A DNA stretch of 35,022 nucleotides from Solirubrobacterales bacterium. Lineage in GTDB: Bacteria > Actinomycetota > Thermoleophilia > Solirubrobacterales > Solirubrobacteraceae. The stretch covers positions 1 to 35,022 of the forward strand of contig JAOPZW010000094.1 in NCBI GenBank assembly GCA_025963905.1, in the 5' to 3' direction. Of this stretch, positions 4,864 through 33,983 are shown in pieces. Each line of letters starts with the position of its first letter. Position 1 is the stretch's first letter. Below the pieces are notes generated by a model, which had not been told where the DNA came from, did not search any database, and was given only the letters and a program-made list of their open reading frames with translations. Made by a program: the position numbers and the translations under genes.

Positions 4864-5883
4864 GTGACCGACACCGACCGCGCGCTGGTGCGTGCCCGCG
4901 CGGGCGACGAGGACGCGTTTCGCGAGCTGACCGACCCCTACCGGCATGAGCTGCAACTGCACTGCTATCGGATCGTCGGCTCGACGCAGGACGCCGAGGA
5001 TTTGGTCCAGGAGACCCTTCTCGCTGCGTGGCGCGGGCTCGGGCAATTCGGCGAACGCGCGTCGATCCGGACCTGGCTCTACCGGATCGCGACGAACCGC
5101 TCCGTCGACACGCTCCGAGCGAGCGCCCGGCGGCCACAAAGCCTCGAGCCGATGACCGAGCTACCCGAGCCGAGCAGGGTCAGCGAGCCGATCTGGCTCC
5201 AGCCATACCCGGACGTCCTGCTCGAGGGGCTCGCAGACGCAGCGCCAGGGCCCGAAGCCCGCTACGAGGCCAAGGAAGCGACCGCGCTCGCGTTTGTCGC
5301 CGGACTCCAGCACCTCCCGCCGCAGCAGCGAGCGGTGCTCGTCCTGCGCGACGTGCTCAGCTTTCGCGCAGCGGAGGTGGCCGACATGCTCGACACGACC
5401 GAAGCCGCGGTGAACAGCCTCCTGCGACGCGCCCGCACCGCCCTCGATACCCGCCTGCCGGCCGCCGGGCGCGAGCGAGCGCCGCTGCCGAACTCCCGGT
5501 CGGAGCGCGAGGTGGTCGGGCGGTTCGCCGACGCTGTCGAAGCCGGCGACGTCGAAGGGGTCCTCGCGTTGCTGACCGACGACGCCTGGGTGACGATGCC
5601 GCCACAGCCCCACGAGTATCAGGGGACGGAGGCGATCGGGCGTTTCCTGCTCGACCGCGCGGTGAGCCGCGGGGGGCCGCTGCGGCTCGTCCCGACCCGC
5701 GCCAACGGGCAGCCCGCCTTCGGCTGCTACTTCCCCTGCCCCCACACGGAGATCGCGCGTCCCTACGGGCTACTCGTGCTCACGCTCGCCGGCAGCAACG
5801 TCGCCGAGATCACCTTCTTCGCCGACAGCAGCGTGTTCCCTCACTTCGGGCTCCCACGCACGCTGACCACACAGCGAACATGA
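4864..5883 (+). CDS. ECF RNA polymerase sigma factor with SnoaL-like C-terminal domain (TIGR02960/SigX5 type)
   Basis: A 339-residue sigma-70 factor. Region 2 spans about residues 5-90 (DAEDLVQETLLAAWRG, then RTWLYRIATNRSVD). Region 4 spans about 145-198 (LPPQQRAVLVLRDVLSFRAAE followed by a helix-turn-helix to LLRRARTAL). Residues about 212-330 form a SnoaL/NTF2-like domain, as in the TIGR02960 group and related ECFs, where the tail rather than a separate anti-sigma factor is thought to modulate activity. No anti-sigma gene is adjacent, which agrees. The start is GTG 4864 with GAGG about 8 nt upstream. The signal and regulon are unknown. Confidence 0.9.
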   Translation: MTDTDRALVRARAGDEDAFRELTDPYRHELQLHCYRIVGSTQDAEDLVQETLLAAWRGLGQFGERASIRTWLYRIATNRSVDTLRASARRPQSLEPMTELPEPSRVSEPIWLQPYPDVLLEGLADAAPGPEARYEAKEATALAFVAGLQHLPPQQRAVLVLRDVLSFRAAEVADMLDTTEAAVNSLLRRARTALDTRLPAAGRERAPLPNSRSEREVVGRFADAVEAGDVEGVLALLTDDAWVTMPPQPHEYQGTEAIGRFLLDRAVSRGGPLRLVPTRANGQPAFGCYFPCPHTEIARPYGLLVLTLAGSNVAEITFFADSSVFPHFGLPRTLTTQRT

Positions 5884-19633: not shown

Positions 19634-20722
19634 TCAAGCGACGCGTCGATCATCGATGAGATCGAGTTGCCAGTCGATCCCAAGACCCGGCGTCTCGGGG
19701 GCGATGGCGTGTCCATCGATGATCTCCATCTCCGCGCCTGTGACCGCACGAAGCTGCGGAATGTGCTCCACGAAGATGCCATTTGGCACCGCGGCCACGA
19801 GACTCACGTGAAGCTCCATGAGGAAATGCGGAGCGACGCTGACGTTGAAGGTCTCGGCCAAGTGAGCGACCTTGAGCCAGGGCGTGATACCTCCAACGCG
19901 TGCAACGTCAACCTGGATGATGGACGCCGCTTCGCTGGTCAGGTACTCCCGAAATTGAGCCGGCGAGTACAACGACTCGCCGACCGCGACCGGGATGCTG
20001 GTGCTCGCGGACAAGCGCGCGTGGCCGGACACATCGTCGGCGGGCAGCGGCTCTTCGAACCAGCTCAAGTCGAGGCCCTCGAAGGCGCGGGCGCGCCGGC
20101 GTGCCTCGGCGCACGTCATCGATTGGTTGGCATCGACCATGATCTGTGTCGCGGGCCCTAGTGCGTTCCGTACCGCCGTGAGGCGCTCGAGGTCGTCGTG
20201 CAGCGAGGGCTTGCCGACCTTGAGCTTGATGCCCGACCAACCGGCTGCCTGGGAGGCCAAGGCTCCAGCGACGAGTTCATCGGTCGTGAGATGCAGCCAC
20301 CCGCGTTCGGTGTCATACAGCGGCACCTCGCGTCGAAACCCGCCGGCGAGGCGCCACAGCGGCTCGCCTGCTCGCTGGCAACGAAGGTCCCAGAGGGCCG
20401 TATCCACCGCCGCGAGCGCGAGCGATGTAACGGCGCCCACCGTCGTTGCCCGCGTCCGCGCGAACAGGGTTCGCCAGAGCGCCTCCACCTGAGTGGCGTC
20501 CTCGCCGACCAGCGCGTCGAGAAGGTAGCCACGAAGCATCGCCAAGACGGCCGTTCCGCCGGTACCGATCGTGTAGGCGTACCCGATGCCCGTCGCGCCG
20601 TCGTCGGTTTTCAGCGTCACGATGACCGTTTCCTGTTTGAGGAACGCCTGTACCGCGTCGGTACGGACCGTTTCGACCGGGATGTCGATCAGCGACGCGG
20701 AGGCGTCGATGATGCGCGTCAC
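19634..20722 (-). CDS. Enolase-superfamily sugar-acid dehydratase, mandelate racemase subgroup
   Basis: A 362-residue protein with the full mandelate-racemase-subgroup active site: Lys166-x-Lys168 in GIKLKVG, metal ligands Asp197 (VDANQ), Glu223 (WFEEP) and Glu249 (VGESLYS), and the dyad Asp272 (QVDVARVGG) with His299 (VAPHF). The spacing matches mandelate racemase itself. Most such enzymes in sugar clusters dehydrate aldonates to 2-keto-3-deoxy acids, so L-fuconate or L-rhamnonate is the likely substrate. It is clearly shorter than the roughly 440-residue Xanthomonas L-fuconate dehydratase. GTG 20722 has GGAG 7 nt ahead and suits the family's N-terminus. A leaderless ATG at 20821 would add 33 unrelated residues. 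It is controlled by the operator at 20823-20839. Confidence 0.88.
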   Translation of the reverse strand: MTRIIDASASLIDIPVETVRTDAVQAFLKQETVIVTLKTDDGATGIGYAYTIGTGGTAVLAMLRGYLLDALVGEDATQVEALWRTLFARTRATTVGAVTSLALAAVDTALWDLRCQRAGEPLWRLAGGFRREVPLYDTERGWLHLTTDELVAGALASQAAGWSGIKLKVGKPSLHDDLERLTAVRNALGPATQIMVDANQSMTCAEARRRARAFEGLDLSWFEEPLPADDVSGHARLSASTSIPVAVGESLYSPAQFREYLTSEAASIIQVDVARVGGITPWLKVAHLAETFNVSVAPHFLMELHVSLVAAVPNGIFVEHIPQLRAVTGAEMEIIDGHAIAPETPGLGIDWQLDLIDDRRVA

Positions 20723-20822
20723 GACGCGGCTCCGCGGATGATCCGAGGCCGCCGCACTGATGTCCCTGTCCTTACGACCGGCCGTCGGCAGAGCCGCATC
20801 ACGCCTCCCATGCATTGGCATT

Positions 20823-20839
20823 ATCCGATACTATAGGAT
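20823..20839. promoter_or_regulatory. GntR-type operator 1 (enolase / gntR1 divergent promoter)
   Basis: Contains ATACTATAGGAT (20828-20839), one mismatch from the palindrome ATCCTATAGGAT seen at 29197. A second ATCC half lies at 20823-20826. On the minus strand TATAGT (20835-20830) would be the -10 of the enolase gene; on the plus strand TAGGAT (20834-20839) would be the -10 of gntR1. A protein bound here would cover both. Confidence 0.65.
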
Positions 20840-20896
20840 CGTGCCTGAGCGACGGCTCCTGTGTCAAGACCCTTCCCCGGGAGCCTCTGATCGTCG

Positions 20897-21589
20897 ATGA
20901 TCGACGCGATGAACGCGGGCGGGCCCATCAAGTCCGAGAAAGGCGGAGCGCGTCAGGCGATGGTCGACGACGTCTACGAGCGCTTGAAGTCTTCGGTCTT
21001 GGACCATGTCGTCGAGCCCGGTCATCGCATCAACGTCGATGCGCTCACGCGAGTCTTCGCGGTCTCGCAGACCCCCATTCGAGAGGCGCTCGCCCGCCTC
21101 GAAGCCGAAGGACTGGTCGTCAAGGAGCCCTTGCGCGGCTTCCGGGCCTCCCCGCCGCTGAGCAACGCGGAATTCGAGGAGCTCTACGACTTCCGGCTGC
21201 TCCTCGAGCCCTGGGCGGCGGCACGCGCCGCACAACGGATCACGCCAGACGCGGCCGCCGGCCTCGAGCAGGAGCTCGCAAGCTGGACCTCCGCGCCAGA
21301 AAGCAGCGGGTACTTCGGTTACCGCGAGCTATCAGCCCACGACGCGCGGTTCCACGGCCGAATCGTCGAGCTTGCGGAGAACGGGCCGCTGAGCACCGCT
21401 TACGAGCGACTGCATGCTCATCTTCACCTGTTCCGTCTGAACTACCAGCGGACCATCGGCGACGAGGCCATTCGAGAGCACCGCGCGATCACAGCAGCGA
21501 TCGTCGCCGGTCGACCCGACGACGCGGAGCAGGCGATGCGGCTGCACCTCACAGCGTCACGCGATCGGCTGCGCGAGTTCGCAGCCTGA
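20897..21589 (+). CDS. GntR-family (FadR/FCD) transcriptional regulator 1
   Basis: A 230-residue regulator. The winged helix occupies about residues 22-88, with recognition region VFAVSQTPIREALARLEAEG. The C-terminal FCD domain (about 92-225) retains the usual metal ligands: Asp149 and His153 (AHDARFH), a His in HAHLH (173-177), and His195 (EHRAI). Such domains bind a carboxylate, often the sugar acid of the pathway they control. It is divergent from the enolase gene and ends 7 bp before the stop of the convergent hydrolase. It closely resembles the regulator at 29216, including LYxFRLLLEPWAAARAA, so the two probably read the same operator. The ATG at 20897 is weakly supported; ATG 20909 is an alternative. 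Confidence 0.9.
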   Translation: MIDAMNAGGPIKSEKGGARQAMVDDVYERLKSSVLDHVVEPGHRINVDALTRVFAVSQTPIREALARLEAEGLVVKEPLRGFRASPPLSNAEFEELYDFRLLLEPWAAARAAQRITPDAAAGLEQELASWTSAPESSGYFGYRELSAHDARFHGRIVELAENGPLSTAYERLHAHLHLFRLNYQRTIGDEAIREHRAITAAIVAGRPDDAEQAMRLHLTASRDRLREFAA

Positions 21590-21596
21590 GATCCAA

Positions 21597-23357
21597 TCAC
21601 CCAAGAACGTCCAGGAGCACGCGGGACGGATGCTCGGGGTCGTGAAACACCCGCTGCCGCGCAACCACGTAATCGGCTTCGCGGGCCCGTGCGATGTCAC
21701 CGCCGTGATTGGGGTTGACATCGAACCGCGGGAAGCTCGAGCTGGAGATGTCCAGTTGCAGACGGTGACCGGCGTCGAAGACGTAGTAGGTGTGCCCGAG
21801 CTCGATCTCGTAGAGCTCGACGCCGTCCGGATCCGCGGACGGCGCGCGTAGCTCGTTCGCTGTTCTGGTCAGGTGGCGTCGCCGGATGATGCCATCGCAG
21901 ACGAGGAGCGCCCGGCCGTCGGGCTGGACTTCGACGAGCTTGGCCGTGAAGTCCGTGTCCTGTGCCGAGGTGGCGGCGTAGAGCTCGACCGTCACGCTGC
22001 CGGCGATGGTGAGCGGCGCGTCGAGCGCCGGGCCGGTGAACGTCAGGACGTCCTGGCGGTGATACGTCGGGCGTTGATCGCGTGGCCCGGCATGGAGGCC
22101 GATGTAGGCACCGGGCAGGAACGTGGCTCCTCCGATGGTCGGCACGGGGTCCACGGGGTCGAACGTGAAGTCCGACGACGGCTGGTCTTCTCGAGGCCGG
22201 CGGTCGGACAAGCGTCCGCGCGCCTCACCGTCGGGCCCGGTGAGCCAGAGACTCTGCGTCCGGGCTTCGGCCGGCGGCCAGCGGCTGTGGCTGACCCAGG
22301 TGTTCGAGCCCATCGCGAAGACCTTCGCGGCCGGCCGTTCGACCTCCGGTGGATGGTCTCCGAGGTGCCGGTCGAAGAACTCGAGGTGCACCCCCGTCAT
22401 GTCCAGCGCGGCCGCACTGGCGCCGGGGCCGAACTCGACCTCGCCGAGCGCGTCGTATTCCACCGCGTGCGCCCACGGTCCGACGAGGAGCTCTTGGTCC
22501 GGCGCGTGCTGCGCCATCCCGAGGTAGTTGGCGATCGTCCCGCGCAAGAAGATGTCGTACCAGCCGGCGATGTGCAGCGCTGGGATCTCGATCGCAGACC
22601 AACGGTCCGACACGCTGATCGCACGCCAGAAGGCATCGTCGCGGTCGCGGGTCAACCATGCCTCGTAGGCGGGCAGCATGGCATTGAGAGCCCCACGGGC
22701 GATCAACGGCCGGCTCCCGAACGCGTGGGCAGGATCGTTCAGCCACTGTTCGAGCTCGTGCAACTCGGCGGACGTGTCCTCACCCGCCCCGGCTCGGCGA
22801 GTCGCCTCCGCGGCCGCCAGCCCGAGCGCCCAGTAGATCGAGAAACCCAGCTGCAATGCGCCGCCGTAGTAGAACCACGAGTCGAAGTAGTCCGCGGCCG
22901 TTGCCTTCGGAGCGATCGCCTTGAGCGCTTCGGGCCTCCGCGTCGCCGCAAGGAGCTGCGTCGCCGCGTAGTAGGACGCGCCGTACATGCCGATCCGGCC
23001 GTTGCAGTAGCTCTGCTCAGCGAGCCACCCGATGGTGTCGGCGCCGTCGTCGCCTTCATGTTCGAACGGGCGAAACACGCCTTCGGAGCCGAAGCGGCCG
23101 CGCGTGTCCTGAATGACCACGACGTAGCCGCGTTCGACGGCGCGCAGCTGCTCGATGCCGGCGTTGACCGCCACGGCGAAGCTGTCTCGCCTGTTGTACG
23201 GCGTGCGCTGAAGCAGGACCGGGTGGCGCTGCTGGTCGTCCGGGCGATAGACGTCAGCCTTCAGGCGCACTCCGTCGCGCATCGGAATCCAAACGTCCCG
23301 ATCGACGACCATCCGCGATGGCGGTTGGTTCGACGCCTCTTGGCGCTCGCCGGTCAC
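21597..23357 (-). CDS. CocE/NonD-family (X-Pro dipeptidyl-peptidase S15-like) hydrolase
   Basis: A 586-residue alpha/beta hydrolase of the CocE family. The N-terminal part, VWIPMRDGVRLKADVYRP, is typical. The catalytic triad can be placed as Ser128 (GMYGASYYA), Asp268 (GWYDIFLRG) and His297 (GPWAHAVEYD), with spacing like cocaine esterase. Residues about 370-586 form the C-terminal jelly-roll (SVTVELYAATSAQDTDFTAKL). It should cleave an ester or acyl bond. In this locus it might remove acyl groups from an imported sugar conjugate, but that is only context. GTG 23357 overlaps the permease stop (GTGA), so it is translationally coupled to the importer. Confidence 0.88.
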   Translation of the reverse strand: MTGERQEASNQPPSRMVVDRDVWIPMRDGVRLKADVYRPDDQQRHPVLLQRTPYNRRDSFAVAVNAGIEQLRAVERGYVVVIQDTRGRFGSEGVFRPFEHEGDDGADTIGWLAEQSYCNGRIGMYGASYYAATQLLAATRRPEALKAIAPKATAADYFDSWFYYGGALQLGFSIYWALGLAAAEATRRAGAGEDTSAELHELEQWLNDPAHAFGSRPLIARGALNAMLPAYEAWLTRDRDDAFWRAISVSDRWSAIEIPALHIAGWYDIFLRGTIANYLGMAQHAPDQELLVGPWAHAVEYDALGEVEFGPGASAAALDMTGVHLEFFDRHLGDHPPEVERPAAKVFAMGSNTWVSHSRWPPAEARTQSLWLTGPDGEARGRLSDRRPREDQPSSDFTFDPVDPVPTIGGATFLPGAYIGLHAGPRDQRPTYHRQDVLTFTGPALDAPLTIAGSVTVELYAATSAQDTDFTAKLVEVQPDGRALLVCDGIIRRRHLTRTANELRAPSADPDGVELYEIELGHTYYVFDAGHRLQLDISSSSFPRFDVNPNHGGDIARAREADYVVARQRVFHDPEHPSRVLLDVLG

Positions 23358-24655
23358 GGCTGGCCCGGCGATGCGCCGGCCCCGTCCACCGCGGCGGTCG
23401 CGGTGGCCGCGCCGGCTCGGCGCCGCACGTTGCCGCCGCGTGACGCGACCGTGTAGATGGCCGACGCCGCAACGAGGACGACGCCCTGCACGACGTACTG
23501 GTAGTTGGATCCGAGGTTGAGGACGTTGAACCCGTTGGACAACGTGAACAGCACGATCGTCCCGAGCACCGACTTGGCCACGAAGCCGGCTCCTCCGAAG
23601 AGCGACGTGCCCCCGAGGATGGCGGCGGCGATCACCGTCAGCTCCGTACCGGAGAGCGCGTTGGGGTCGAGCGAGTTGAACTGACCGGCGAAGATGATCC
23701 CGACCCCGGCAGCGGCTACTCCCGAGAGCACGAAGGGGACCATCTTGTAGCGGTTGACGCTGATGCCCGAGAGCCGAGCTGCCTCCAGGCTGCTGCCGAC
23801 GGCGTGCAGGTTGCGTCCGACCGTCAGGAACCGCAGCATGAGGCTGACGACGAGCGACAGGGCCAGCATGAGCCACACCGGGAGCGGTTGCGTCAGCGCG
23901 CCCGGGGCGATGATCGCCAGGATGATGGCACCGGCCCCGACCGCGACCGACGCGACGAAGAAGCCATCGAGCGGCACGCCGTCGGCGGCGCGCAGCGCGG
24001 CCCGTAGCCTCGCCGCCGCTCCGGCCAGCACAGCACACCCGACCAGCACGCACAGGGCGGCGGGGATCGCCACGGTCTGCGCGTCGAAAGACGCGAGCGC
24101 CTGAGACTGAGCGGTGACGCTTTCGCCGTTGAGCAAGATCAGGACCACGCCGCGGATGGCGGTCAGCGACCCGAGGGTCACGATGAACGCGTTGACGCCG
24201 ACGATCTGCACCAGGACCGCGTTGATCGTTCCGGCGACAAGCCCGGCGCCAAGGGCCAGCGCCACGGCTCCGACCGTGCCGATGTCGTCGATCGTCAGGA
24301 GCGCGACGGCCCCGGCCAGCGCAGCGACCGACCCGACGGACAGGTCGAAGTTGCCGGAGATCAGCACGACCGTCATGAAGATCGCCAAGATCCCGTAGGG
24401 AGCAGCCTGCCCGACGATGTTCGAGGCGTTGGTGACCGAGAGGTACGCGGGCTGTCCCCTCACCGCGGTGGCGATCATCAGCCCGACGACCAGCAGGACC
24501 AGGGCATAGACCACGCCGGCGCGCTGCGGCCGAAATGCGGCGCGCACCGAGCCGAGACGCGGGACGGCCGCCCGCGCGATCGGAGCGTGTCGCTCGTGGG
24601 ACGACGGCGCGGCCGAAGCGTTGCTCTCGCGCGTCGGATTGGCAGCGCCGCTCAT
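23354..24655 (-). CDS. CUT2-family sugar ABC transporter permease (RbsC-like)
   Basis: A 433-residue membrane protein with a roughly 40-residue polar N-terminus, then about ten TM segments. FMTVVLISGNFDLSVGSVAALAG is the permease signature of the ribose/autoinducer (CUT2) group; FVLSGVAAAGVGIIFAGQFNSLDP and AAAILGGTSLFGGAGFVAKSVLG are the conserved later loops that meet the ATPase. It forms the inner-membrane channel with the ATPase gene, whose stop it overlaps by 4 bp (ATGA), and uses the binding lipoprotein at 26158. The substrate is probably the 6-deoxy sugar degraded by the surrounding enzymes. No damage is seen. Confidence 0.92.
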   Translation of the reverse strand: MSGAANPTRESNASAAPSSHERHAPIARAAVPRLGSVRAAFRPQRAGVVYALVLLVVGLMIATAVRGQPAYLSVTNASNIVGQAAPYGILAIFMTVVLISGNFDLSVGSVAALAGAVALLTIDDIGTVGAVALALGAGLVAGTINAVLVQIVGVNAFIVTLGSLTAIRGVVLILLNGESVTAQSQALASFDAQTVAIPAALCVLVGCAVLAGAAARLRAALRAADGVPLDGFFVASVAVGAGAIILAIIAPGALTQPLPVWLMLALSLVVSLMLRFLTVGRNLHAVGSSLEAARLSGISVNRYKMVPFVLSGVAAAGVGIIFAGQFNSLDPNALSGTELTVIAAAILGGTSLFGGAGFVAKSVLGTIVLFTLSNGFNVLNLGSNYQYVVQGVVLVAASAIYTVASRGGNVRRRAGAATATAAVDGAGASPGQP

Positions 24656-26148
24656 TGGAGGCCTCCTACGATGGCCGTCAGACTGCTTGTGTCGATCGAC
24701 GCCGCCGCCACATCGCGCACGACGTCGCCGTGACGCATCACGAGAACCCGATCGGCCACGCTCAGCAGCTCGTCGAAATCAGAGATCGCCACGAGGATCG
24801 CCGCTCCTCGGGAGGCCAGGTCACGGATCAACCCGATCAGGTCGGCCTTGCCGCTGACATCGATGCCGGCCGTGGGCTCGTCGAGGAGCAGAACGCTGAG
24901 CGCTCCGTAGATCCACTTCGCGAACACCACCTTCTGGGCGTTGCCGCCGCTCAGCCGGCTCACCGGCGTGTCGATCGACTCGGCAACGATCCCCAGGTCG
25001 GTGCAGGCCTGCTCAGCGCGTCGGCGCTCGGCGCCCACGTCGAGGACCCCGGACCTCGAGAGACCGCCAAGGTCCGTGAGGGAGATGTTGCGCCAGATCT
25101 CCCACTCGGGGATGAGCCCTTGGCCGGCGCGGTCTTCGGGCACGAACGCCATGCCGGCCCGCACGGCGTCGCCTGGCCGAGCGGCAACGGCGCAGCCCTC
25201 GACCGTCACCGCGCCCGCCACGCGCCGGTCCGCGCCGAAGATCGAACGAAGCAGCGCCGTGCGCCCCGACCCGAGGAGACCGGCGAGCCCGACGATCTCG
25301 CCGGCTCGGAGCCGAACGTCGACCGGGTTGCGAACGGTCGTTGAAGTGAGGGCGCTGACCTCGAGTACGGGCTTGCCCATCGCCTTGCTCGGACGGGCTT
25401 TCTCGATCGCCTCGAGGCGCTCGCCGACGATGCCTCGAAGAATGCGGTCCTCGTCGACCGCGCCCTCCTCCATCTCGTCCACGAGTCGACCGTCGCGGAG
25501 CACGCTGACGCGATCGCAGATCGCCACGATCTCGTCGAGGAAGTGCGAGACGAACAGCACGGCGGTCCCGTTGACCGCCAGGCGACGGGCGGACCGCAGC
25601 ACCGCCTCGCGCTCTGCGCGGCCGATGGAGGCAGTCGGCTCGTCGAGCACGATCATCGCCGCTCCCGTCGCCAGCGCCCGCAGGATGGAGACCATCTGAC
25701 GGTCCCCGATCGACAGCTCGCTGACCCGTTCGAACGGGTCGATGACGTAGTCCAATCGCTCGCAGGTCCGCCGGAAGTGCTCGAGGCGCCGGCTCGGGAG
25801 CCAGCTCCCACCTGCGCCGTGTCCGAGGTACACGTTCTCGATCACGTTGAGTGCCGGCGCCACCGGGCTCTGCTGGTGGACCACTGCGATGCCCGCCGAG
25901 ACCGCGTCCGCGGGCCGGCGGAACTGCGCTGGCTCGCCACGCCAGCGCAGGGTTCCGGTCGTCGGCGCCTCCGCACCGGCGATGATCTTGATGAGCGTCG
26001 ACTTGCCGGCACCGTTCCCGCCGACCAGGCCGTGGACCAGCCCCGGGCGAACCGCCACCGACACGTCTCTGAGCGCGCGGGTGCCGCCCACGTAGACCTT
26101 CGAGACCGAGCGCAGCTCGAGCAGCGGCTTCTGGGCACCCTCAGCCAC
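24652..26148 (-). CDS. CUT2-family sugar ABC transporter ATP-binding protein (RbsA-like, two ABC domains)
   Basis: A 498-residue double ATPase. Domain 1 has Walker A GGNGAGKST (43-51), an altered signature ELSIGDRQ (144-151) and Walker B MIVLDEPT (165-172). Domain 2 has a degenerate Walker A, GLLGSGRTA (290-298), an intact LSGGN (399-403) and Walker B VLLLDEPTAGID (419-430). This asymmetry, with a non-canonical second P-loop, is normal for RbsA/MglA-type proteins. The GTG start at 26148 lies 9 bp after the lipoprotein stop. The order binding protein, ATPase, permease is that of a single importer operon. Confidence 0.93.
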   Translation of the reverse strand: MAEGAQKPLLELRSVSKVYVGGTRALRDVSVAVRPGLVHGLVGGNGAGKSTLIKIIAGAEAPTTGTLRWRGEPAQFRRPADAVSAGIAVVHQQSPVAPALNVIENVYLGHGAGGSWLPSRRLEHFRRTCERLDYVIDPFERVSELSIGDRQMVSILRALATGAAMIVLDEPTASIGRAEREAVLRSARRLAVNGTAVLFVSHFLDEIVAICDRVSVLRDGRLVDEMEEGAVDEDRILRGIVGERLEAIEKARPSKAMGKPVLEVSALTSTTVRNPVDVRLRAGEIVGLAGLLGSGRTALLRSIFGADRRVAGAVTVEGCAVAARPGDAVRAGMAFVPEDRAGQGLIPEWEIWRNISLTDLGGLSRSGVLDVGAERRRAEQACTDLGIVAESIDTPVSRLSGGNAQKVVFAKWIYGALSVLLLDEPTAGIDVSGKADLIGLIRDLASRGAAILVAISDFDELLSVADRVLVMRHGDVVRDVAAASIDTSSLTAIVGGLQ

Positions 26149-26157
26149 GGCGGGAGC

Positions 26158-27189
26158 TCACCACTGCGGAGCGCACTGGCTGACGTTCTTGAGCGTGATC
26201 GCCGGTGTGTTGTAGCTCAGGACCTGGTGCGGGGCCGGGGCCTTTCCGGTGATCTGCGCGTAGAGCGTGTCGAACGCCTTGGCGCCCTCGTCCTCGGGCT
26301 TGAAGCACACCGTGCCGTAGATCGAGTGGTCCTTGATCCCGGTGATGCCGCCCTTCGAGCCGCCGTTGCCCAGGACCTTGGCCTTCGACTTCGCCGCGGC
26401 CACGGCCTTCGCACAGCCGTTGGCCATGTCGTCGCTCAGCGCGTAGAACAGCTGGATGTCAGGGTGCGCGGACAGAATCCCCTGGCACGCGGCCTGGCCC
26501 TTCTGAGCCGTCCAGTCGCCCGGCTGGGTGGCGACGATGTTGTACTTGCCTCTGGCGAGATCGGCCTTGAAGCCCGCCGTCCACGAGGTGTTCTCCTGGA
26601 AGCCGGCGGCGCCGGTGATGATCGCGATCTTGCCGCCCTGGGGAAGGGCCGACTTCGCGAGACCCGCCTCGAGATGGCCGAGCTGGTCGGCGTTCTCATT
26701 GATGGTGAACGACAGCTTGTCGTAGGGCTTGCTCGCAGGCCCGGTCCCGACGTTCCCATGCACTGAGGCGACGGGAATGCCTGCGGTGGCCGCGCGATCG
26801 ACCATCGCCTTCGCCGGTCCGGGCGAGTTCGGCACCAGGAGGATTCCGCTGACCTTCTGCGCGACGAGGTCCTGCATGTCGCTCCCCTGCTTCTGGACGT
26901 CGCCCTTGCTGTCGAGGACGACGAGCGTCGCGCCGAGCTTGTCGGCCTCCTGCTTCGCGCCCTTCGCCAGGCCAACCGGGAACGTGACGGCCATCGTCTG
27001 GTTGGACAAGCCGACGACAACCTTCTTCGACGCGGTCTTGGTGGTCGCCGCTGCCGTGGCAGCCGACGCGCCGCTGCCCGAGGAGTTGGAGCTTCCGCAA
27101 CCGGCCATCACCGCGGCACCGGCCACCAGAAGCGCAACCGTGCCGGCGTACCAGGCAGTGCGGCCCCGTCGCTTGTTCGTGTCTCGCAT
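26158..27189 (-). CDS. Sugar ABC transporter substrate-binding lipoprotein (RbsB-like)
   Basis: A 343-residue periplasmic-binding-protein type 1 component. The N-terminus has basic residues, a hydrophobic stretch and a lipobox, VMAGC, with Cys31 as the lipidation site, followed by a Gly/Ser/Ala/Thr linker. The core starts VVVGLSNQTMAVTFPVGLAKG and has ILLVPNSPG, GKIAIITGAAG and LFYALSDDMANGCAKAV, the usual RbsB-like segments. It should capture the imported sugar outside the membrane for the ATPase and permease encoded next. ATG 27189 is supported by AAGGG just upstream. An operator-like palindrome lies 23 bp upstream, over the predicted -10. Confidence 0.92.
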   Translation of the reverse strand: MRDTNKRRGRTAWYAGTVALLVAGAAVMAGCGSSNSSGSGASAATAAATTKTASKKVVVGLSNQTMAVTFPVGLAKGAKQEADKLGATLVVLDSKGDVQKQGSDMQDLVAQKVSGILLVPNSPGPAKAMVDRAATAGIPVASVHGNVGTGPASKPYDKLSFTINENADQLGHLEAGLAKSALPQGGKIAIITGAAGFQENTSWTAGFKADLARGKYNIVATQPGDWTAQKGQAACQGILSAHPDIQLFYALSDDMANGCAKAVAAAKSKAKVLGNGGSKGGITGIKDHSIYGTVCFKPEDEGAKAFDTLYAQITGKAPAPHQVLSYNTPAITLKNVSQCAPQW

Positions 27190-27211
27190 GTCCCTTCGAC
27201 CCTCCAATCCG

Positions 27212-27223
27212 ATCCTATAAGAT
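27212..27223. promoter_or_regulatory. GntR-type operator 2 (ABC importer promoter)
   Basis: ATCCTATAAGAT, one mismatch from the perfect palindrome at 29197. On the minus strand it contains TAGGAT (27217-27212), suited to be the -10 of the importer operon. A leader of about 16 nt would follow, carrying the ribosome site. Binding here would block transcription of the importer genes. Confidence 0.65.
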
Positions 27224-27302
27224 TTCTGGCGATGCTGATCGTTGCTAGGGCGGATGTCAAGTCGGCTCCCGTGAAACGCCACGACAAGACGTCCACGGGC
27301 GG

Positions 27303-28190
27303 TCACGTCTCCGCGTTGCCGGGCGACGTGCGAGCTGCCGGGGAGAGTCGGTAGGCGGCTCGGGCGGCACCGCCGAACACGGCTTCACGCTCGGCGGGAT
27401 CGAGCGCTTCGACCAGACGCTCGGCGGTCCGGACCACCTCGTCGTAGCTGCCTGCCAGCGTGCAGACCGGCCAGTCAGATCCGAAAAGGACGCGGTCGGC
27501 GCCGAAGGCGTCGAGGACCGATTCGGCGTAGGGACGCAGCTGCGCGACCGTCCAGCTCGTCCAGTCGGCCTCGGTCACCATCCCGGACAGCTTGCAGGTG
27601 ACGTTCGGAAGCGACCCAAGCGCCCGCAGCCCGGTGGCCCACGGCTCGATGCGCCCTGTCGCGATCGCCGGCTTTGCGAGGTGGTCGACGACGAATCGGA
27701 GCTCGGGGATGGCGGCCGCCGTCTCGTGCGCCGCGCCGAGCTGATGCGGGAGGATCAGCAGGTCGTAGGCCAACCCGGCATCGGCCACCGCGAAGAGGCC
27801 GCGGCGGACGTCCGGGCGGCACAGCCAGCGAGGATCGGCCTCTCCCTGCACCAGGTGACGGATCCCTACGAGGCGATCGCCGAACGGCTCCGCCTGCAGC
27901 CGGCACAGGCGCTCGGAGACGTCGGCGGAAGTCAGGTCGACCCACCCGACGACGCCCGCCACCGCCGTGTTGGCACCGGCGAGCATCAGGAGCTCCGGTG
28001 TCTCCTCGGGCACGGCCAGCGTCTGGACGAGCACGACGCCCTCGATGCCGGCTCGCTCGCGCTCGTCGGCCACGTCCGCCAGAGCGAAGCTGCGGTGCAG
28101 CGGAGCGAGGTCGCCCGCCGTCCACGGCTGGTCACGCACAGCCAGGTCCCAGACGTGCATATGAGCGTCGATCCGCGCCACGGAGGTCAC
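27303..28190 (-). CDS. Amidohydrolase (COG3618), probable sugar lactonase (L-fuconolactonase-like)
   Basis: A 295-residue TIM-barrel metal-dependent hydrolase of the amidohydrolase-2 family. Likely metal or catalytic residues are His10 and His12 (DAHMHVWD), His149 (LPHQ), His170 (VVDHLAKP) and Asp239 (LFGSDWPV), with Lys200 in CKLSG. Characterised relatives in fucose and rhamnose oxidation open the 1,4- or 1,5-lactone to the aldonate. GTG 28190 overlaps the stop of the aldo-keto reductase gene (GTGA), so lactone formation and hydrolysis are coupled in one message. The lactone specificity is inferred from context. Confidence 0.87.
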   Translation of the reverse strand: MTSVARIDAHMHVWDLAVRDQPWTAGDLAPLHRSFALADVADERERAGIEGVVLVQTLAVPEETPELLMLAGANTAVAGVVGWVDLTSADVSERLCRLQAEPFGDRLVGIRHLVQGEADPRWLCRPDVRRGLFAVADAGLAYDLLILPHQLGAAHETAAAIPELRFVVDHLAKPAIATGRIEPWATGLRALGSLPNVTCKLSGMVTEADWTSWTVAQLRPYAESVLDAFGADRVLFGSDWPVCTLAGSYDEVVRTAERLVEALDPAEREAVFGGAARAAYRLSPAARTSPGNAET

Positions 28191-29134
28191 GCCCCGAGCT
28201 CCTCCCACAGGTCAGCGGGGATCTCGCACGCAAGCTGCGCCAGGCAGTCGTCGAGCTCGCGGACGCTCCGTGCACCGGCCAGGACCGAGGTGACAGCTGG
28301 GTGCCGCATCGGGAATTGGAGAGCCGCAGCACGCAACGAGACGCCGTGGCGCTCGCAGGTCACCGCGAGGGCCCTCGCACGGGCGAGCGTGTCGGGACTG
28401 GCCGACACGTAGCCGTAGCGCGCGCCCGGTCCGGGATCGGCCAGGATCCCGGAGTTGAACACGCCGCCCACGACCACCGCCACGTCGCGCTCCAGACACG
28501 CCGGGAGGAGCGACGACGCGGCTTCGCGGTCCAGCAGGGTGAACCGGCCCGCGACCAGGACGAGATCGACGTCGGTCTCCCGGACGAAGCGCTCGAGTAC
28601 CCGCGTCTGGTTCATGCCCGCGCCGATCGCGCGCACGACGCCCTCGGCGCGCAGCTCCTCCAGGACGGGATAGGCCTCCCGCAGGGCTTGTTCCTCGTAG
28701 TCGTCGGGGTCGTGGATGAGGACGACGTCGACGTGGTCGAGTCCGAGGCGGTGGAGACTGGCCTCCAGCGAACGGAGAATCCCGGTGCGGCTGAAGTCGA
28801 AGACCGCATCCGACGGAGGAGCGTCCGGGAAGATGCCGGTGTCGCCGCCCGGGCGGGGCACGATGAGCCTGCCGACCTTGGTGGAGAGGATGAACGCTCC
28901 GCGGTCGACCTCCGCCAGCGCGGCGCCGACCCGGCGTTCCGCCGTCCCGTGACCGTATTGCGGGGCCGTGTCGAGGTAGACGACGCCCGCCTCGAGCGCG
29001 CGCCGGACCACCGCATGCGCTTCGTCGTCGGCAACCGACGTGTACAACCCGGCGATGCCCGCGGTGCCGAGACCGACCGTCGGCAACTCCACCCCCGTGC
29101 GGCGGACCGGGCGACGCTGCAGCGGGACGGTCAA
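28187..29134 (-). CDS. Aldo-keto reductase, probable L-fucose (6-deoxy sugar) dehydrogenase
   Basis: A 315-residue AKR with the catalytic tetrad Asp55 and Tyr60 (YLDTAPQYGHG), Lys86 (STKVGR) and His141 (LIHDPDD). PTVGLGTAGIAGLY at the start and ERRVGAAL after the Tyr are features of the D-threo-aldose/L-fucose 1-dehydrogenase and pyridoxal dehydrogenase group, which oxidises sugars to lactones with NAD(P). The neighbouring lactonase fits. The best start is TTG 29134 with GGAA upstream; no ATG or GTG fits better. It is divergent from gntR2, with operator 3 between them. L-fucose as substrate is an inference. Confidence 0.87.
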   Translation of the reverse strand: MTVPLQRRPVRRTGVELPTVGLGTAGIAGLYTSVADDEAHAVVRRALEAGVVYLDTAPQYGHGTAERRVGAALAEVDRGAFILSTKVGRLIVPRPGGDTGIFPDAPPSDAVFDFSRTGILRSLEASLHRLGLDHVDVVLIHDPDDYEEQALREAYPVLEELRAEGVVRAIGAGMNQTRVLERFVRETDVDLVLVAGRFTLLDREAASSLLPACLERDVAVVVGGVFNSGILADPGPGARYGYVSASPDTLARARALAVTCERHGVSLRAAALQFPMRHPAVTSVLAGARSVRELDDCLAQLACEIPADLWEELGA

Positions 29135-29195
29135 CGGGTTTCCACGGGTACAGCGCGGTGATGGATCAGCCCGATCACGGCCTGGCTCACCCCCA

Positions 29196-29209
29196 CATCC
29201 TATAGGATG
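29196..29209. promoter_or_regulatory. GntR-type operator 3 (AKR / gntR2 divergent promoter)
   Basis: A perfect 14-bp palindrome, CATCCTATAGGATG. TAGGAT (29203-29208) inside it ends 7 nt before ATG 29216, so it would also be the -10 of a leaderless gntR2 message. This is the best-conserved of the three sites and implies autoregulation. Confidence 0.7.
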
Positions 29210-29215
29210 TCGGAA

Positions 29216-29905
29216 ATGGGATCCTCTCCCCTATCGCCGCCGCCGGCGCGCCTGCCCGAGCGCCATCTGCTGGCTGACGACGTCTACGAGACCGTCAAGG
29301 CGATGCTCATGGACCATGCGATCGCTCCGAAGGCGCGGCTCTCGATCGATGGCCTCGCGCGCCAGCTCCACGTGTCCCAGACTCCGATCCGCGAGACGCT
29401 TGCCCGCCTGGAGTCAGAAGGATTGGTCACCAAGGAGCCGATGCGCGGTTACTCGGCGACGAGCCTGCTCGACCGCCAGTCGCTCGAGGATCTCTACGAA
29501 TTCCGGCTCCTGCTCGAGCCGTGGGCCGCGGCGCGCGCCGCCCGGCTGGTCAGCGAGGAAGGCGTGGCTCGCCTGGAGGCTGAGTTGGATACCTGCCCCG
29601 TCGCCCCGGAGGGGACCGACTACCACGCCTACGGCCTCATCACCGCCCACGACGCCCGGTTTCACGATCTCGTTGCCGAGCTCTCCGGCAGCGCGCGGGT
29701 GCGCGCGGCCTTCCGGCGAACGCACGCGCACCTGCACCTGTTCCGCCTGGCATACGGGCAGAACCTCGGTTCCCACGCGCTGGAGGAGCACCACGAGATC
29801 GTGCGTGCCATCGCCGGGCGTTCGCCCGGAGACGCGGAGCGCGCGATGCGCACCCATCTGGTCACGGCCCGCGACCGGCTCTTGCCGATGGTGGGCGAGA
29901 CATGA
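29216..29905 (+). CDS. GntR-family (FadR/FCD) transcriptional regulator 2
   Basis: A 229-residue regulator, paralogous to the one at 20897. The winged helix is at about residues 20-80 (LHVSQTPIRETLARLESEG), and the FCD domain follows, with Asp and His of AHDARFH, HAHLH and EHHEI as metal ligands. Large blocks, such as DDVYE, VSQTPIRE, LARLE and FRLLLEPWAAARAA, are shared with regulator 1. I prefer ATG 29216 to ATG 29207 because the latter lies inside the palindrome and the -10 position then fits a leaderless start. Its stop overlaps the SDR start (ATGA). It probably controls both this operon and the importer. Confidence 0.9.
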   Translation: MGSSPLSPPPARLPERHLLADDVYETVKAMLMDHAIAPKARLSIDGLARQLHVSQTPIRETLARLESEGLVTKEPMRGYSATSLLDRQSLEDLYEFRLLLEPWAAARAARLVSEEGVARLEAELDTCPVAPEGTDYHAYGLITAHDARFHDLVAELSGSARVRAAFRRTHAHLHLFRLAYGQNLGSHALEEHHEIVRAIAGRSPGDAERAMRTHLVTARDRLLPMVGET

Positions 29906-30678
29906 CCGCGCCGACTCGGAGCGAGATGGCGCACATGGAGTTCGCCGGTACGAGCGCGGTGGTGACCGGCGGCGTCTCCGGCATCGGCCTTGCGACGGCC
30001 CGCCTGCTTGCTGAGCGTGGCGCGCGCGTCGCAGTGCTCGACCGCTCGGCGGACAGCGCGCCTGTGGACGCAGAGCAGCTTCGTTGCGACGTGGGCGACG
30101 ATGCGTCGGTCCGAAGCGCCGTCGCCGCGGCGGCACAACGGCTCGGCGGGATCGACATCCTCATCAACAACGCCGGGATCGGCGCGCGCGGCACCGTCGC
30201 CGACAACGACGATGCCGAGTGGCACCAGGTGCTCGACATCAACGTCGTCGGGATCGTCCGCGTCACCCGCGCGACCCTGCCGTATCTGCGCCGGTCGCGA
30301 AGTGCCGCCATCGTCAACACCTGCTCGATCGCAGCGACGGCCGGGCTGCCGCAGCGTGCGCTCTACAGCGCGACCAAGGGCGCGGTCCTGGCGCTCACCC
30401 TGGCGATGGCCGCCGACCACGTCGGGGAGGGCATCCGGGTGAACTGCGTGAATCCCGGTACGGTCGACACGCCGTGGGTCGCACGCCTGCTCGACGCGGC
30501 CGACGACCCCGCCGCCGAGCGCGCCGCGCTGGAAGCGCGGCAGCCCACCGGCCGCTTGGTCTCGGCCGAGGATGTGGCGCACGCGATCGCCTATCTGGCG
30601 TCGCCCAGCAGCGGGTCGACCACGGGCACGGCGCTGCCCGTCGACGGAGGCATGCAGGGCCTCCGGGTGCGACGTTGA
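29902..30678 (+). CDS. SDR, probable 2-keto-3-deoxy-L-fuconate (or rhamnonate) dehydrogenase
   Basis: A 258-residue classical SDR. Nucleotide motif TGGVSGIG (22-29), LDR after the second strand suggesting NAD(H), NNAG (89-92), Ser142, Tyr155 and Lys159 (YSATK) are all present. The C-terminus, TGTALPVDGGMQG, is that of the intact family. In the Xanthomonas-type fucose and Sphingomonas-type rhamnose routes an SDR oxidises the 2-keto-3-deoxy acid at C4 to the 2,4-diketo acid. The position after the regulator and before a hydrolase remnant matches this role. It overlaps gntR2 by 4 bp. Confidence 0.88.
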   Translation: MTAPTRSEMAHMEFAGTSAVVTGGVSGIGLATARLLAERGARVAVLDRSADSAPVDAEQLRCDVGDDASVRSAVAAAAQRLGGIDILINNAGIGARGTVADNDDAEWHQVLDINVVGIVRVTRATLPYLRRSRSAAIVNTCSIAATAGLPQRALYSATKGAVLALTLAMAADHVGEGIRVNCVNPGTVDTPWVARLLDAADDPAAERAALEARQPTGRLVSAEDVAHAIAYLASPSSGSTTGTALPVDGGMQGLRVRR

Positions 30679-30791
30679 CCATCGACCTCGCCCTCGTGGG
30701 CGAGCCCGGGCACTACCTGCGCGCCGGCGACGTCGTCGAGGTCGACGTTGGCGGCATCGGCACGCTGACCAACCCTGTGGAAGTGGTGTGA
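30675..30791 (+). pseudogene. C-terminal remnant of a fumarylacetoacetate hydrolase (FAH)-family protein
   Basis: A 38-codon frame opens at TTG 30675, overlapping the SDR stop (TTGA), and ends at TGA 30789-30791. Its second half, [20 protein letters not shown] followed by PV, is the closing segment of FAH-fold enzymes (LxPGDVVEVEIEGIGTLxNPV). The 200 or more residues with the metal ligands are missing. In this pathway an FAH enzyme normally splits the 2,4-diketo-3-deoxy acid into pyruvate and L-lactate. The simplest reading is a deletion that joined the SDR 3' end to the hydrolase 3' end. Confidence 0.72.
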
Positions 30792-30838: not shown

Positions 30839-31561
30839 ATGGAGGTCGCGCTGTTCATCACCTGCCTGAACGACACGCTGTTTCCCAGCACCGGCCGGGC
30901 GACGGTGACGCTGCTGGAGCGCCTCGGCTGCACCGTCACGTTTCCCGAGGAGCAGACGTGCTGCGGTCAGATGCACGCCAACGCGGGGTACGGCCGCGAC
31001 GCGGTGGCGCTCGTCCGGCGGTTCGTGGACGTCTTCGCGCCGTACGAGGCCATCGTCACCCCATCGGGCTCGTGTGCCGCCATGGTGCGGACGCACTACG
31101 CCGAACTGGCCCGCGAGGCCGGCGACGACGAGCTCGCGCGCGCCGCCGCGGCGGTGGCGCCGCGCGTGCACGAGCTGACCGAGTTCCTGGTGTCGGTGCT
31201 CGGCGTCGAGGACGTCGGCGCGGTGTTCCCGCACCGCGTCACCTACCACCCCGCCTGCCACGGCCTGCGAGCGCTGGGCAATGCCGATGCCGCGCTGCGC
31301 CTGCTGCGGCGCGTGGACGGCATGACGCTCATCGAGCTGCCGGAGGCCGCCACCTGCTGCGGCTTCGGCGGCACGTTCTCGCTGAAGAACCCCGAGACAT
31401 CCACGGCGATGCTGACCGACAAGATGCGCGCCGTCCTGCAGACCGGCGCCGAGGTGGTCTGCGCCGTCGACAGCTCGTGCCTCATGCACCTCGGCGGCGG
31501 CCTCTCCCGCGCGCGGGCCGGAGTGACGACGATGCACGTCGCGGAGATCCTCGCCTCGTGA
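30839..31561 (+). CDS. lutA: L-lactate utilisation protein LutA ((Fe-S)-binding, CCG domains)
   Basis: A 240-residue protein with two cysteine-rich CCG modules: CCG at 41-43 ([10 protein letters not shown]), HPACHG near 137-142 and CCG at 173-175 ([11 protein letters not shown]), plus Cys residues in SGSCAAM and DSSCLMH. This is the plan of LutA/YkgE, one subunit of the LutABC complex that oxidises L-lactate to pyruvate in the cytoplasm. GAGGG directly before ATG 30839 is very close; GGAAGG further up may be the real ribosome site. LutB follows with a GTGA overlap. In this operon it would consume lactate released from the deoxy sugar. Confidence 0.92.
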
Positions 31562-32964
31562 CCGGGACGTTCCGCCAGGCCGCGGCCACCGCCCTGGACG
31601 ACGCGCAGCTGCGCAGCAACCTTCGGACCGCCACGCACACGATCCGCGACAAGCGCCTGGCCGCCGTCGGCGAGGTCCCCGACTGGGAGCAGCTGCGCGA
31701 GGCCGGCCGGCGCATCAAGGCCCGCACGATGCGCCACCTCGGCGTCCACCTCGAGACGCTCGAGCGATCGGTGACCGATCGCGGCGGCACGGTGCACTGG
31801 GCCGTCGATGCCGCGGAGGCCAACGGCATCGTCACACGGCTCTGCCTCGCGGCCGGTGCGCATGAAGCGGTCAAGGTCAAGTCCATGGCGACTGACGAGA
31901 TCGGGCTCGCCGCGGCGCTCGAGCAGGCCGGCGTGCGGCCGATCGAGACCGACCTCGCGGAGCTCGTCGTCCAGCTCGATCCGCAGGACCGCTCATCGCA
32001 CATCCTCGTTCCCGCGATCCATCGCAACCGCGAGCAGATCGCCGCCTTGTTCCGGGCGCGCATCCCGGGCGCCGAGGACGTCACCTCGAACCCGGCGGAC
32101 CTCGCCGCGGCGGCCCGGCGCTACCTGCGCGAGCGCATGCTCGGCGCGACGGTGGCCATCAGCGGCGCGAACTTCGCCGTCGCGGACACCGGCACCATCG
32201 TGGTCGTCGAGTCCGAGGGCAATGGGCGGATGTGCCTGACGCTCCCCCGCACGCTCATCACCGTCATGGGCATCGAGAAGGTGCTTCCCCGGCTGGAGGA
32301 CCTCGAGGTCATGCTGCAGCTCCTGCCGCGGTCCTCGACCGCCGAACGCATGAACCCGTACACCTCGCTGTGGTCCGGCGTGCACGAGGGCGACGGACCG
32401 CAGGAGTTCCACCTCGTGCTGCTGGACAACGGGCGCACCAGCGTGCTGGCCGACGACCGCGGGCGCGACGCCCTGCACTGCATCCGCTGCAGTGCCTGCC
32501 TGAACGTCTGCCCCGTCTACGAGCGGACGGGTGGGCAGGCGTACGGCTCGACCTATCCGGGGCCGATCGGCGCGATCCTCGCGCCCCAGCTCTCGGCCCT
32601 GCGCGAGCACCGAGACCTGCCATGGGCGAGCTCGCTGTGCGGCGCCTGCTACGAGGTCTGCCCGGTCAAGATCGACATCCCTGCGATCCTCGTGCACCTG
32701 CGCCGCCGGATTGTCGAAGACCGCGCCGAGGGCGGTAGACGTCTGGACCCGGAGCGCACGTCGATGGCGCTGCTGGGCCGCTTGTTCCGCTCGCGGCGAC
32801 GCTACGAGGCCGCCCAGCGAGCGGCGCGGATCGCCGCCCGGCCGCTCAGCGACGGCCCGCAGATTCGCCCGGTTCCGGGCCTGCTGCGCGCCTGGACGCA
32901 CTCGCGCGACCTGCCGGCCCCGGCGGCGCAGTCGTTCCGCGACTGGTGGCGGGAGCGGTCGTGA
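31558..32964 (+). CDS. lutB: L-lactate utilisation protein LutB (LUD domain plus two 4Fe-4S motifs)
   Basis: A 468-residue protein. Residues about 60-290 form the LUD domain ([39 protein letters not shown]). The ferredoxin-like part has [12 protein letters not shown] (Cys308, 311, 314, 318) and CGACYEVCP (Cys361, 364, 368), the pattern of LutB/YkgF. The C-terminal domain ends in FRDWW. It should pass electrons from lactate with LutA and LutC. GTG 31558 overlaps the lutA stop and its own stop overlaps lutC, so the three subunits are translationally coupled. Confidence 0.93.
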
Positions 32965-33647
32965 CCGACGCGCGCGCGACGATCCTCGACCGCGTCCGCT
33001 CGGCGCTCGCCGATGTCCCGGCTGCCGAGCCGCACGTGTGGCCGGGGGCCGACGAGCCGATCGACCCGCCTGCGGCGTACCACCGCACGAGCGACCTCTC
33101 CGCTGGCGAGCTCGCCGACCGCTTCGCCGCACGGGCGGGCGAGTACCAGGCGCGGATCGTGCGCTGCGGGCAGGAAGACTCCGAGATCGCCGCGGCGGTC
33201 GGCCGGGCCCTGGCTGCCGAGCCGGGCGACGGGCCGCTCGTCGTGCCACCGGGTCTGCCCGCCGCGTGGCGCCCGGCCGGCGCCGTGGAGGACACCGGGC
33301 TCGCCATCGGCGACCTCGACCGGGCGGCGGGGGCCGTCACCGGATGCGCGATCGCGATCGCGGACACCGGGACCGTCGTGCTCGACCACGGCCCTGCCCA
33401 GGGACGCCGCGCGCTCACGCTCGTCCCCGACCTCCACGTCTGCGTCGTGCGCGAGGACGACCTCGTCGGAAGCGTCCCCGAGGCCGTCGCCCGCTTGGCG
33501 AACGCGGTACGCGCCGGCCGCCCGATCACCCTGATCTCGGGACCGTCGGCGACGTCGGACATCGAGCTGCAGCGCGTCGAAGGGGTGCACGGGCCGCGGC
33601 GCCTCGTCATCGTGCTCGCCGCCGGCGCCAGGAGACGCGCGACCTGA
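32961..33647 (+). CDS. lutC: L-lactate utilisation protein LutC (LUD domain)
   Basis: A 228-residue LUD-domain protein. The second half carries the family elements [32 protein letters not shown] and [20 protein letters not shown], the last being the strongest LutC/YkgG mark. It completes the lutABC set. GTG 32961 overlaps the lutB stop by 4 bp (GTGA). An ATG at 32946 would add five residues but lies inside lutB. It converges on the mutarotase gene, 12 bp away, with no clear hairpin between. Confidence 0.92.
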
Positions 33648-33659
33648 TGGGGCGCGGTG

Positions 33660-33983
33660 TCAATCGAGGTGGAAGACCTCGTCCATCGCGGCCCACCACT
33701 CCCCCTCGCCACGGCTGGGCAGCGGCTTCTGCATCGGTTCGGTCAGCGCCCACCACCGCCTGGTCTCGGGATCCGAAGCCATCGCGCGCATGTCTGCCTC
33801 GAGATCACCGCCTCCGTACTCGAAATAGCCGAACAGCATGCCGTCGTGCAGGAAGATCGAGTAGTTATGGATATTGCTGCGCTTGAGCTGCTCCTTGACG
33901 GCGGGCCACGCATCGGCATGGAGTTGGCGGTACTCCGCCTCAGCGTCGGAGCGCAGTCCGATGACAAAGCCGTGACGTGTCAT
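33660..33983 (-). CDS. rhaM: L-rhamnose/L-fucose mutarotase (RhaM, DUF718 family)
   Basis: A 107-residue protein of the dimeric alpha/beta-barrel RhaM family, normally about 104 residues. Tyr18 and His22 occur at the same positions as the catalytic residues of E. coli RhaM (EYRQLHADAWP), followed by NYSIFLHDGMLFGYFEY and the Trp-rich WWALTEPMQ. It interconverts the anomers of L-rhamnose or L-fucose so that the dehydrogenase gets the right form. A DUF718 mutarotase also belongs to the Xanthomonas fucose cluster. The start is ATG 33983, with only a weak ribosome site. It lies opposite to lutABC and needs its own promoter; no copy of the operator is seen near it. Confidence 0.9.
   Translation of the reverse strand: MTRHGFVIGLRSDAEAEYRQLHADAWPAVKEQLKRSNIHNYSIFLHDGMLFGYFEYGGGDLEADMRAMASDPETRRWWALTEPMQKPLPSRGEGEWWAAMDEVFHLD

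Follow-up and report, generated by a model that had tools for sequence, protein, structure and literature searches.

We propose that a palindrome occurring at three promoters of the window (the whole stretch of 35,022 nucleotides from a Solirubrobacterales bacterium that we analyzed) is the operator of two paralogous regulators, GntR1 and GntR2, and that it defines a local, auto-regulated regulon for the uptake of a 6-deoxy sugar of the L-fucose type and its oxidative breakdown to pyruvate and L-lactate. We give this reading, which is built on sequence evidence, a probability of roughly 0.85. The initial annotation of this DNA had suggested a local GntR/FCD regulon, and several findings support it: both sites that a related locus allows us to test are conserved in it, the palindrome recurs beside distant homologs, and one residue of the regulators is associated with the operator. 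A guess made from the sequence alone thus becomes a regulon prediction for an uncultured lineage. With it comes a rule, open to testing, that links protein and DNA in a clade of catabolic repressors: where Asp stands at position 28 of the helix-turn-helix (HTH), look for ATCCTATAGGAT. The rule aids the annotation of sugar-acid pathways and allows recognition by GntR-family proteins to be probed cleanly through mutation.

The locus, its predicted operators and its two regulators

A pattern search of the window locates the perfect palindrome ATCCTATAGGAT (0 mismatches) at 29197-29208 (site C), between the aldo/keto reductase (AKR) gene and gntR2, where TAGGAT reads in both directions. Two forms with one mismatch lie at 20828-20839 (site A, ATACTATAGGAT), between the enolase-superfamily dehydratase gene and gntR1, and at 27212-27223 (site B, ATCCTATAAGAT), upstream of the sugar importer operon and its binding-protein gene; the three predicted operators are assigned to no strand. 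These positions are the ones given in the initial annotation, which was also right about the promoters concerned: those of the enolase-family gene and gntR1 (A), the importer binding protein (B), and AKR and gntR2 (C). The mutarotase apart, all operons of the cluster have one of the three sites upstream; upstream of the mutarotase gene no match with up to 3 mismatches was found. An accessory half-site, ATCCGAT, can be read from the sequence abutting site A (20823..20829, + strand) and site B (27207..27213, + strand); it adjoins both imperfect operators, whereas the perfect operator C is without it, and possibly these half-sites compensate for the mismatch.

We used Pfam and NCBIfam profiles and the nearest solved structures to define the gene content. 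The sugar-acid dehydratase of the enolase superfamily (MR/MLE; 19634..20821, - strand, with a true start that may be GTG 20722) is nearer to talarate/galactarate-type enzymes and 3,6-anhydro-L-galactonate cycloisomerase than to L-fuconate dehydratase when compared with solved structures. The importer operon, also on the - strand, contains a periplasmic sugar-binding protein (Peripla_BP_4, 26158..27189), a sugar ABC ATPase with two ABC domains (24652..26148), an ABC sugar permease (23354..24655) and, as its last gene, a CocE/NonD (S15) hydrolase (21597..23390), which perhaps strips an acyl group from the imported sugar. On the same strand are an amidohydrolase (27303..28208), whose top NCBIfam match, below the cut-off, is L-fucono-1,5-lactonase, and the AKR (28187..29134), whose nearest solved relatives are L-galactose dehydrogenases. 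On the + strand, gntR2 (29216..29905) is overlapped through ATGA by a short-chain dehydrogenase (SDR, 29902..30678), and downstream of this pair are lutABC-type L-lactate oxidation genes (30839..33647); a RhaM-type sugar mutarotase (33660..33983) is on the - strand. An oxidative L-fucose (6-deoxyhexose) pathway would call for a dehydrogenase, a lactonase, a dehydratase, an SDR and an acylpyruvate hydrolase of the fumarylacetoacetate hydrolase (FAH) family; the locus holds AKR, lactonase-like, MR/MLE and SDR candidates for these steps, and FAH as a 37-aa remnant only. The oxidative pathway for 6-deoxyhexoses yields pyruvate and L-lactate, and LutABC would oxidize the lactate; the gene set fits such a pathway, with the substrate being putative. 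The FAH remnant (37 codons, 30678-30788, + strand) matches only the last 26 positions of PF01557 and sits between the SDR gene and lutA, which is the expected place of the acylpyruvate hydrolase in an L-fucose-type pathway; complete FAH genes are present on other contigs of the genome.

Both gntR1 (20897..21589, + strand) and gntR2 encode a regulator with a GntR HTH, an FCD domain and Asp at HTH position 28. The two proteins pass the cut-offs for the N-terminal GntR winged HTH (PF00392, 50.2 and 48.8 bits, cut-off 27) and the C-terminal FCD domain (PF07729, 83.6 and 84.5 bits, cut-off 24.3), and both combine Asp at the position aligned with FadR Arg35 with a non-Arg residue, Gln, at the position of FadR Arg45. 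The operators predicted near their own genes, site A upstream of gntR1 and site C upstream of gntR2, are two-fold symmetric. In a tree, GntR1, GntR2 and the regulator of a related locus from an Ilumatobacteraceae MAG (L023) fall into one subclade (support 96/95), which makes GntR1 and GntR2 paralogs, and because their recognition helices are nearly identical (SQTPIRE) both could bind the predicted sites. Paralogs within one locus commonly split tasks, and it is quite possible, if not our preference, that the predicted operators serve one regulator only and that the other has diverged to another effector or other sites. In the L023 genome, where sites B and C are conserved, only the gntR2 ortholog was found, and GntR2 by itself could therefore suffice for these two sites; the missing gntR1 is weak evidence because that assembly is fragmented. 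Against such a division stand the near identity of the two recognition helices and the location of site A directly upstream of gntR1.

Promoters and the proposed mode of repression

A scan of the region with the standard sigma-70 consensus returned no promoter, so our promoter assignments draw on conservation and not on consensus score. The candidate -35 of the dehydratase gene is a TTGACA at 20862..20867 (- strand), 22 nt from site A. The candidate importer promoter, TTGACA-N17-CAGCAT (27232..27260, - strand), is conserved in L023, and site B starts 8 nt downstream of it, at about +1. A TTGAC[A/G] box is found 11-44 nt from the palindrome, on the side of the structural operon, at sites A and B of the window, in L023 and L024, in Rhizobiaceae and in several actinobacteria, where the background is 0.04 per 70 nt per strand; most of the operators of this type that we compared have the box on that side, and at site C none was found. 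The initial annotation had stated that each copy of the palindrome overlaps a -10-like hexamer. The hexamers TAGGAT and TATAGT are literally present and a -10 inside the palindrome is probably right for site C, but at site B it is probably wrong because the conserved promoter upstream puts the palindrome near +1.

The TAGGAT of site C is followed, after 7 nt, by ATG 29216; L023 has the equivalent ATG, and in L042 an ATG at the gntR start lies 6 nt after the TAGGAT of the palindrome. This spacing suggests that gntR2 is probably leaderless from ATG 29216 and would be shut off by a predicted operator on its -10. ATG 29207 is a less likely start since in L023 that frame stops before gntR2. In L023 (2874-2918) the leaderless frame that follows site C forms a short ORF whose TGA overlaps the ATG of gntR2 (ATGA), while the equivalent start in the window reads into GntR2 with no stop.

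In the proposed mechanism, a regulator dimer would bind each ATCC-TATA-GGAT site and, because the sites cover the -10 (C, probably A) or the transcription start (B), RNA polymerase would be blocked. The transcripts affected would be those of the dehydratase and gntR1, the importer, AKR-lactonase and gntR2-SDR-lutABC, and release would be brought about by a sugar acid, for example L-fuconate or its 2-keto-3-deoxy derivative. For the steric repression that the initial annotation had predicted, the support comes from the positions of the sites and from knowledge of the family. Some regulators of the FadR subfamily, such as CitO and HypR, activate from sites upstream of the -35 (PMC6608401), and at part of these promoters the regulators of the window might likewise be activators instead of repressors. 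We consider this improbable, given that the palindromes here lie at -10 to +1 and not upstream of the -35, and that in Atu1419 and HypR repression goes with sites over the -10. It is also conceivable that the palindromes are parts of divergent promoters, with TAGGAT in both directions, that no regulator reads: TAGGAT resembles actinobacterial -10 boxes, site C has no other promoter-like element and the sigma-70 scan was empty. This is very improbable, since a core promoter sequence would recur genome-wide, but the genome has no other copies with up to 1 mismatch; moreover, the palindrome accompanies a single regulator clade in phyla whose promoters differ, and it is separate from the promoter elements both at site B and in Rhizobiaceae.

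Rarity, conservation and the residue-operator association

We searched the draft genome (4.71 Mb, 512 contigs, 88.6% complete) and compared the counts with the expectation from Markov models of order 0-3 trained on the window. With up to 1 mismatch, the whole draft genome contains sites A, B and C only, that is 3 copies where 0.3-0.9 are expected per genome and 0.002-0.006 per window. With up to 2 mismatches, 13 more places are added, giving 16 where about 13-22 are expected in the genome. The three sites are therefore far above chance and the 2-mismatch places are at chance level; among the 2-mismatch copies of this genome that were followed up as loci, none has a GntR gene beside it. Within the window, the only further matches with up to 3 mismatches are at 4962 and 20823, each at 3, the latter overlapping site A. 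The earlier statements that the window holds no further copy and that such a recurrence is unlikely to be chance are borne out, and the genome scan with up to 2 mismatches, which the initial annotation had recommended, did not reveal many unrelated copies. Across 397 genomes of the phylum the perfect palindrome shows no overall enrichment (12 genomes, about the same as a reversed control pattern) and is by itself no marker; among those perfect copies, a GntR gene adjoins only the ones in the window and in G274. This background level would suit a chance recurrence of an AT-rich 12-mer, but the 3 copies with up to 1 mismatch inside 8.4 kb of the window, the conservation and the association with Asp28 described below make that explanation negligible.

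The L023 locus has a gntR2 gene that is 85% identical, and its AKR, lactonase and importer genes are ordered as in the window. At site B a stretch of 19 bp, AATCCGATCCTATAAGATT, is conserved down to the single mismatch and the adjoining ATCCGAT half-site, and at site C a stretch of 17 bp, ACATCCTATAGGATGTC, is conserved within a spacer that is otherwise poorly alignable. The L023 genome contains no site with up to 1 mismatch beyond its B and C equivalents. In Yinghuangia, the importer operon of a related cluster is preceded by two sites with 2 mismatches each.

In Rhizobiaceae and Actinomycetota, GntR relatives with 35-46% identity are likewise flanked by perfect or near-perfect copies. Pararhizobium (L033) and Rhizobium (L041) have the perfect palindrome upstream of a gntR relative, and ATCCGATCGGAT or forms with one mismatch are found beside others. 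In the actinobacterial genomes G208 and G274 the palindrome is near a gntR gene in a neighborhood with dihydroxyacetone-kinase-like, isomerase-like, 3HCDH and GntP genes. In Agrococcus (G586), a gene-blind search showed that the only 3 sites of the genome with up to 1 mismatch are on one contig, within 8.2 kb, surrounding a GntR/FCD gene that shares the HTH signature and has PdxA-type, TIM-barrel and SDR genes around it; judged from its sequence, this cluster is an independent copy of the arrangement in the window, for a different pathway. The three sites of this locus (L066, contig C184) are of the form TTCCTATAGGAT and the neighbors also include MFS and TctC genes, which makes a sugar-acid regulon of its own likely. 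On Rhizobiaceae plasmids (L033, L034, L035, L037 and L039), related gntR genes with the same predicted operator are divergent to genes for an Ldh-type oxidoreductase, an iron alcohol dehydrogenase and a succinate-semialdehyde dehydrogenase, a conserved pathway.

To compare residue and operator, we gathered 54 GntR/FCD relatives by homology, some of them picked for taxonomic spread. For each we noted which residue aligns with FadR Arg35 and how well the palindrome is matched, at its best, in the 400 bp around the gene, counting it as present with up to 2 mismatches. The palindrome is present for 18 of the 22 regulators with Asp at this position versus 0 of the 32 with other residues (Fisher p = 7.5e-11, Mann-Whitney p = 6e-9, values that are not exact because the rows are related). 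Despite the kinship of the rows, each individual site is improbable in its own right. The association is mainly a property of a clade, since 21 of the 22 Asp regulators belong to one supported set of 25 rows (96/98 in the tree), the clade that includes both GntR1 and GntR2, and the effect of Asp28 is not separated here from that of other residues of the clade. The Asp regulator outside the clade (L076) has Arg at the FadR-Arg45 position and is without a site; L087 and one of the two Asp regulators of L025 have 3-mismatch sites only, and the Agrococcus gntR L025:10001, with no site nearby, was retained as a negative case.

The motif built from 26 sites is strongest at T2, C3 and the central AT, with C4 weaker, and its information is highest at C3/G10 and the central AT. 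In a published study of the FadR subfamily, HTH position 28 (FadR Arg35) correlates with site positions 6/14, through Arg-G and Asp-C contacts, and HTH position 39 correlates with site positions 9/11 (PMC4494728). Taking 10 as the center, a numbering that we infer from that text, 6/14 would be the K/M bases of TKGT/ACMA and correspond to C3/G10 here, and 9/11 would be the central A and T. Asp at position 28 would then go with C at the K position, and the loss of Arg45 (here Gln) with the loss of the following G. Throughout the clade the Arg45 position is occupied by Gln, Pro or His and the corresponding operator base is mostly C, so the operator departs from TKGT/ACMA as the published code predicts. 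We dropped an assignment in which Asp28 takes the place of the contact to the G of TKGT, since 6/14 are K/M and equal C3 while this G equals C4, the base read by Arg45 in Atu1419. We lean slightly towards the broader reading that a widespread and hitherto undescribed clade of sugar-acid GntR/FCD regulators in Actinomycetota and Rhizobiaceae shares the operator ATCC[T/G]A[T/C]AGGAT as a result of two residue changes, FadR Arg35 to Asp and the loss of Arg45, which turn TKGT/ACMA into TCCT/AGGA. If this is true, operators could be predicted from protein sequence throughout the clade.

Comparison with known systems

As a mechanism, the proposed GntR repression is an ordinary one; the type of operator appears to be undescribed in the literature searched, in which we found no regulator paper with ATCCTATAGGAT or its variants, while supplementary site lists (including that of PMC4494728) and RegPrecise, which were outside the scope of the search, may hold the motif. 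Two candidates were set aside: the published account of SCO1678 is without a palindrome of this kind, and the motif of HypR differs from ATCCTATAGGAT. The top NCBIfam match of both regulators, over almost the full length, is the phosphonate-associated regulator TIGR03338 (phnR_burk), but the scores of 105.5 and 98.9 bits fail the cut-off of 271.5 and the neighborhood here is one of sugar, not phosphonate, catabolism. Compared by pathway, the FucR-type L-fucose regulation of Halomonas (PMC5507952) is alike in its dehydrogenase, lactonase, dehydratase and SDR, but the members differ, the dehydratase here being nearer to talarate/galactarate dehydratases.

The window shares with the FadR subfamily, as described by Suvorova et al. 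2015 (PMC4494728), the GntR HTH and FCD domains, palindromic operators in divergent intergenic regions, the single site, and the control of catabolic neighbors and of the regulator itself. It differs in the operator, TCCT-AT-AGGA here against the published TKGT/ACMA box, to which the window sites do not conform, and in Asp at HTH position 28, which the same study describes as much rarer than Arg and predicts to contact C. Since that source names NanR and BioR as subfamily members outside the consensus, we regard the window sites as a deviating operator and keep the two proteins within the family. Atu1419 of Agrobacterium fabrum (VanR group of FCD, PMC7797058) is similar in having a short perfect palindrome, ATGTATACAT, over the -10, several copies in one catabolic region, and repression; its Arg45 reads the G at palindrome position 3, whereas GntR1 and GntR2 have Gln at that residue and the operator has C.
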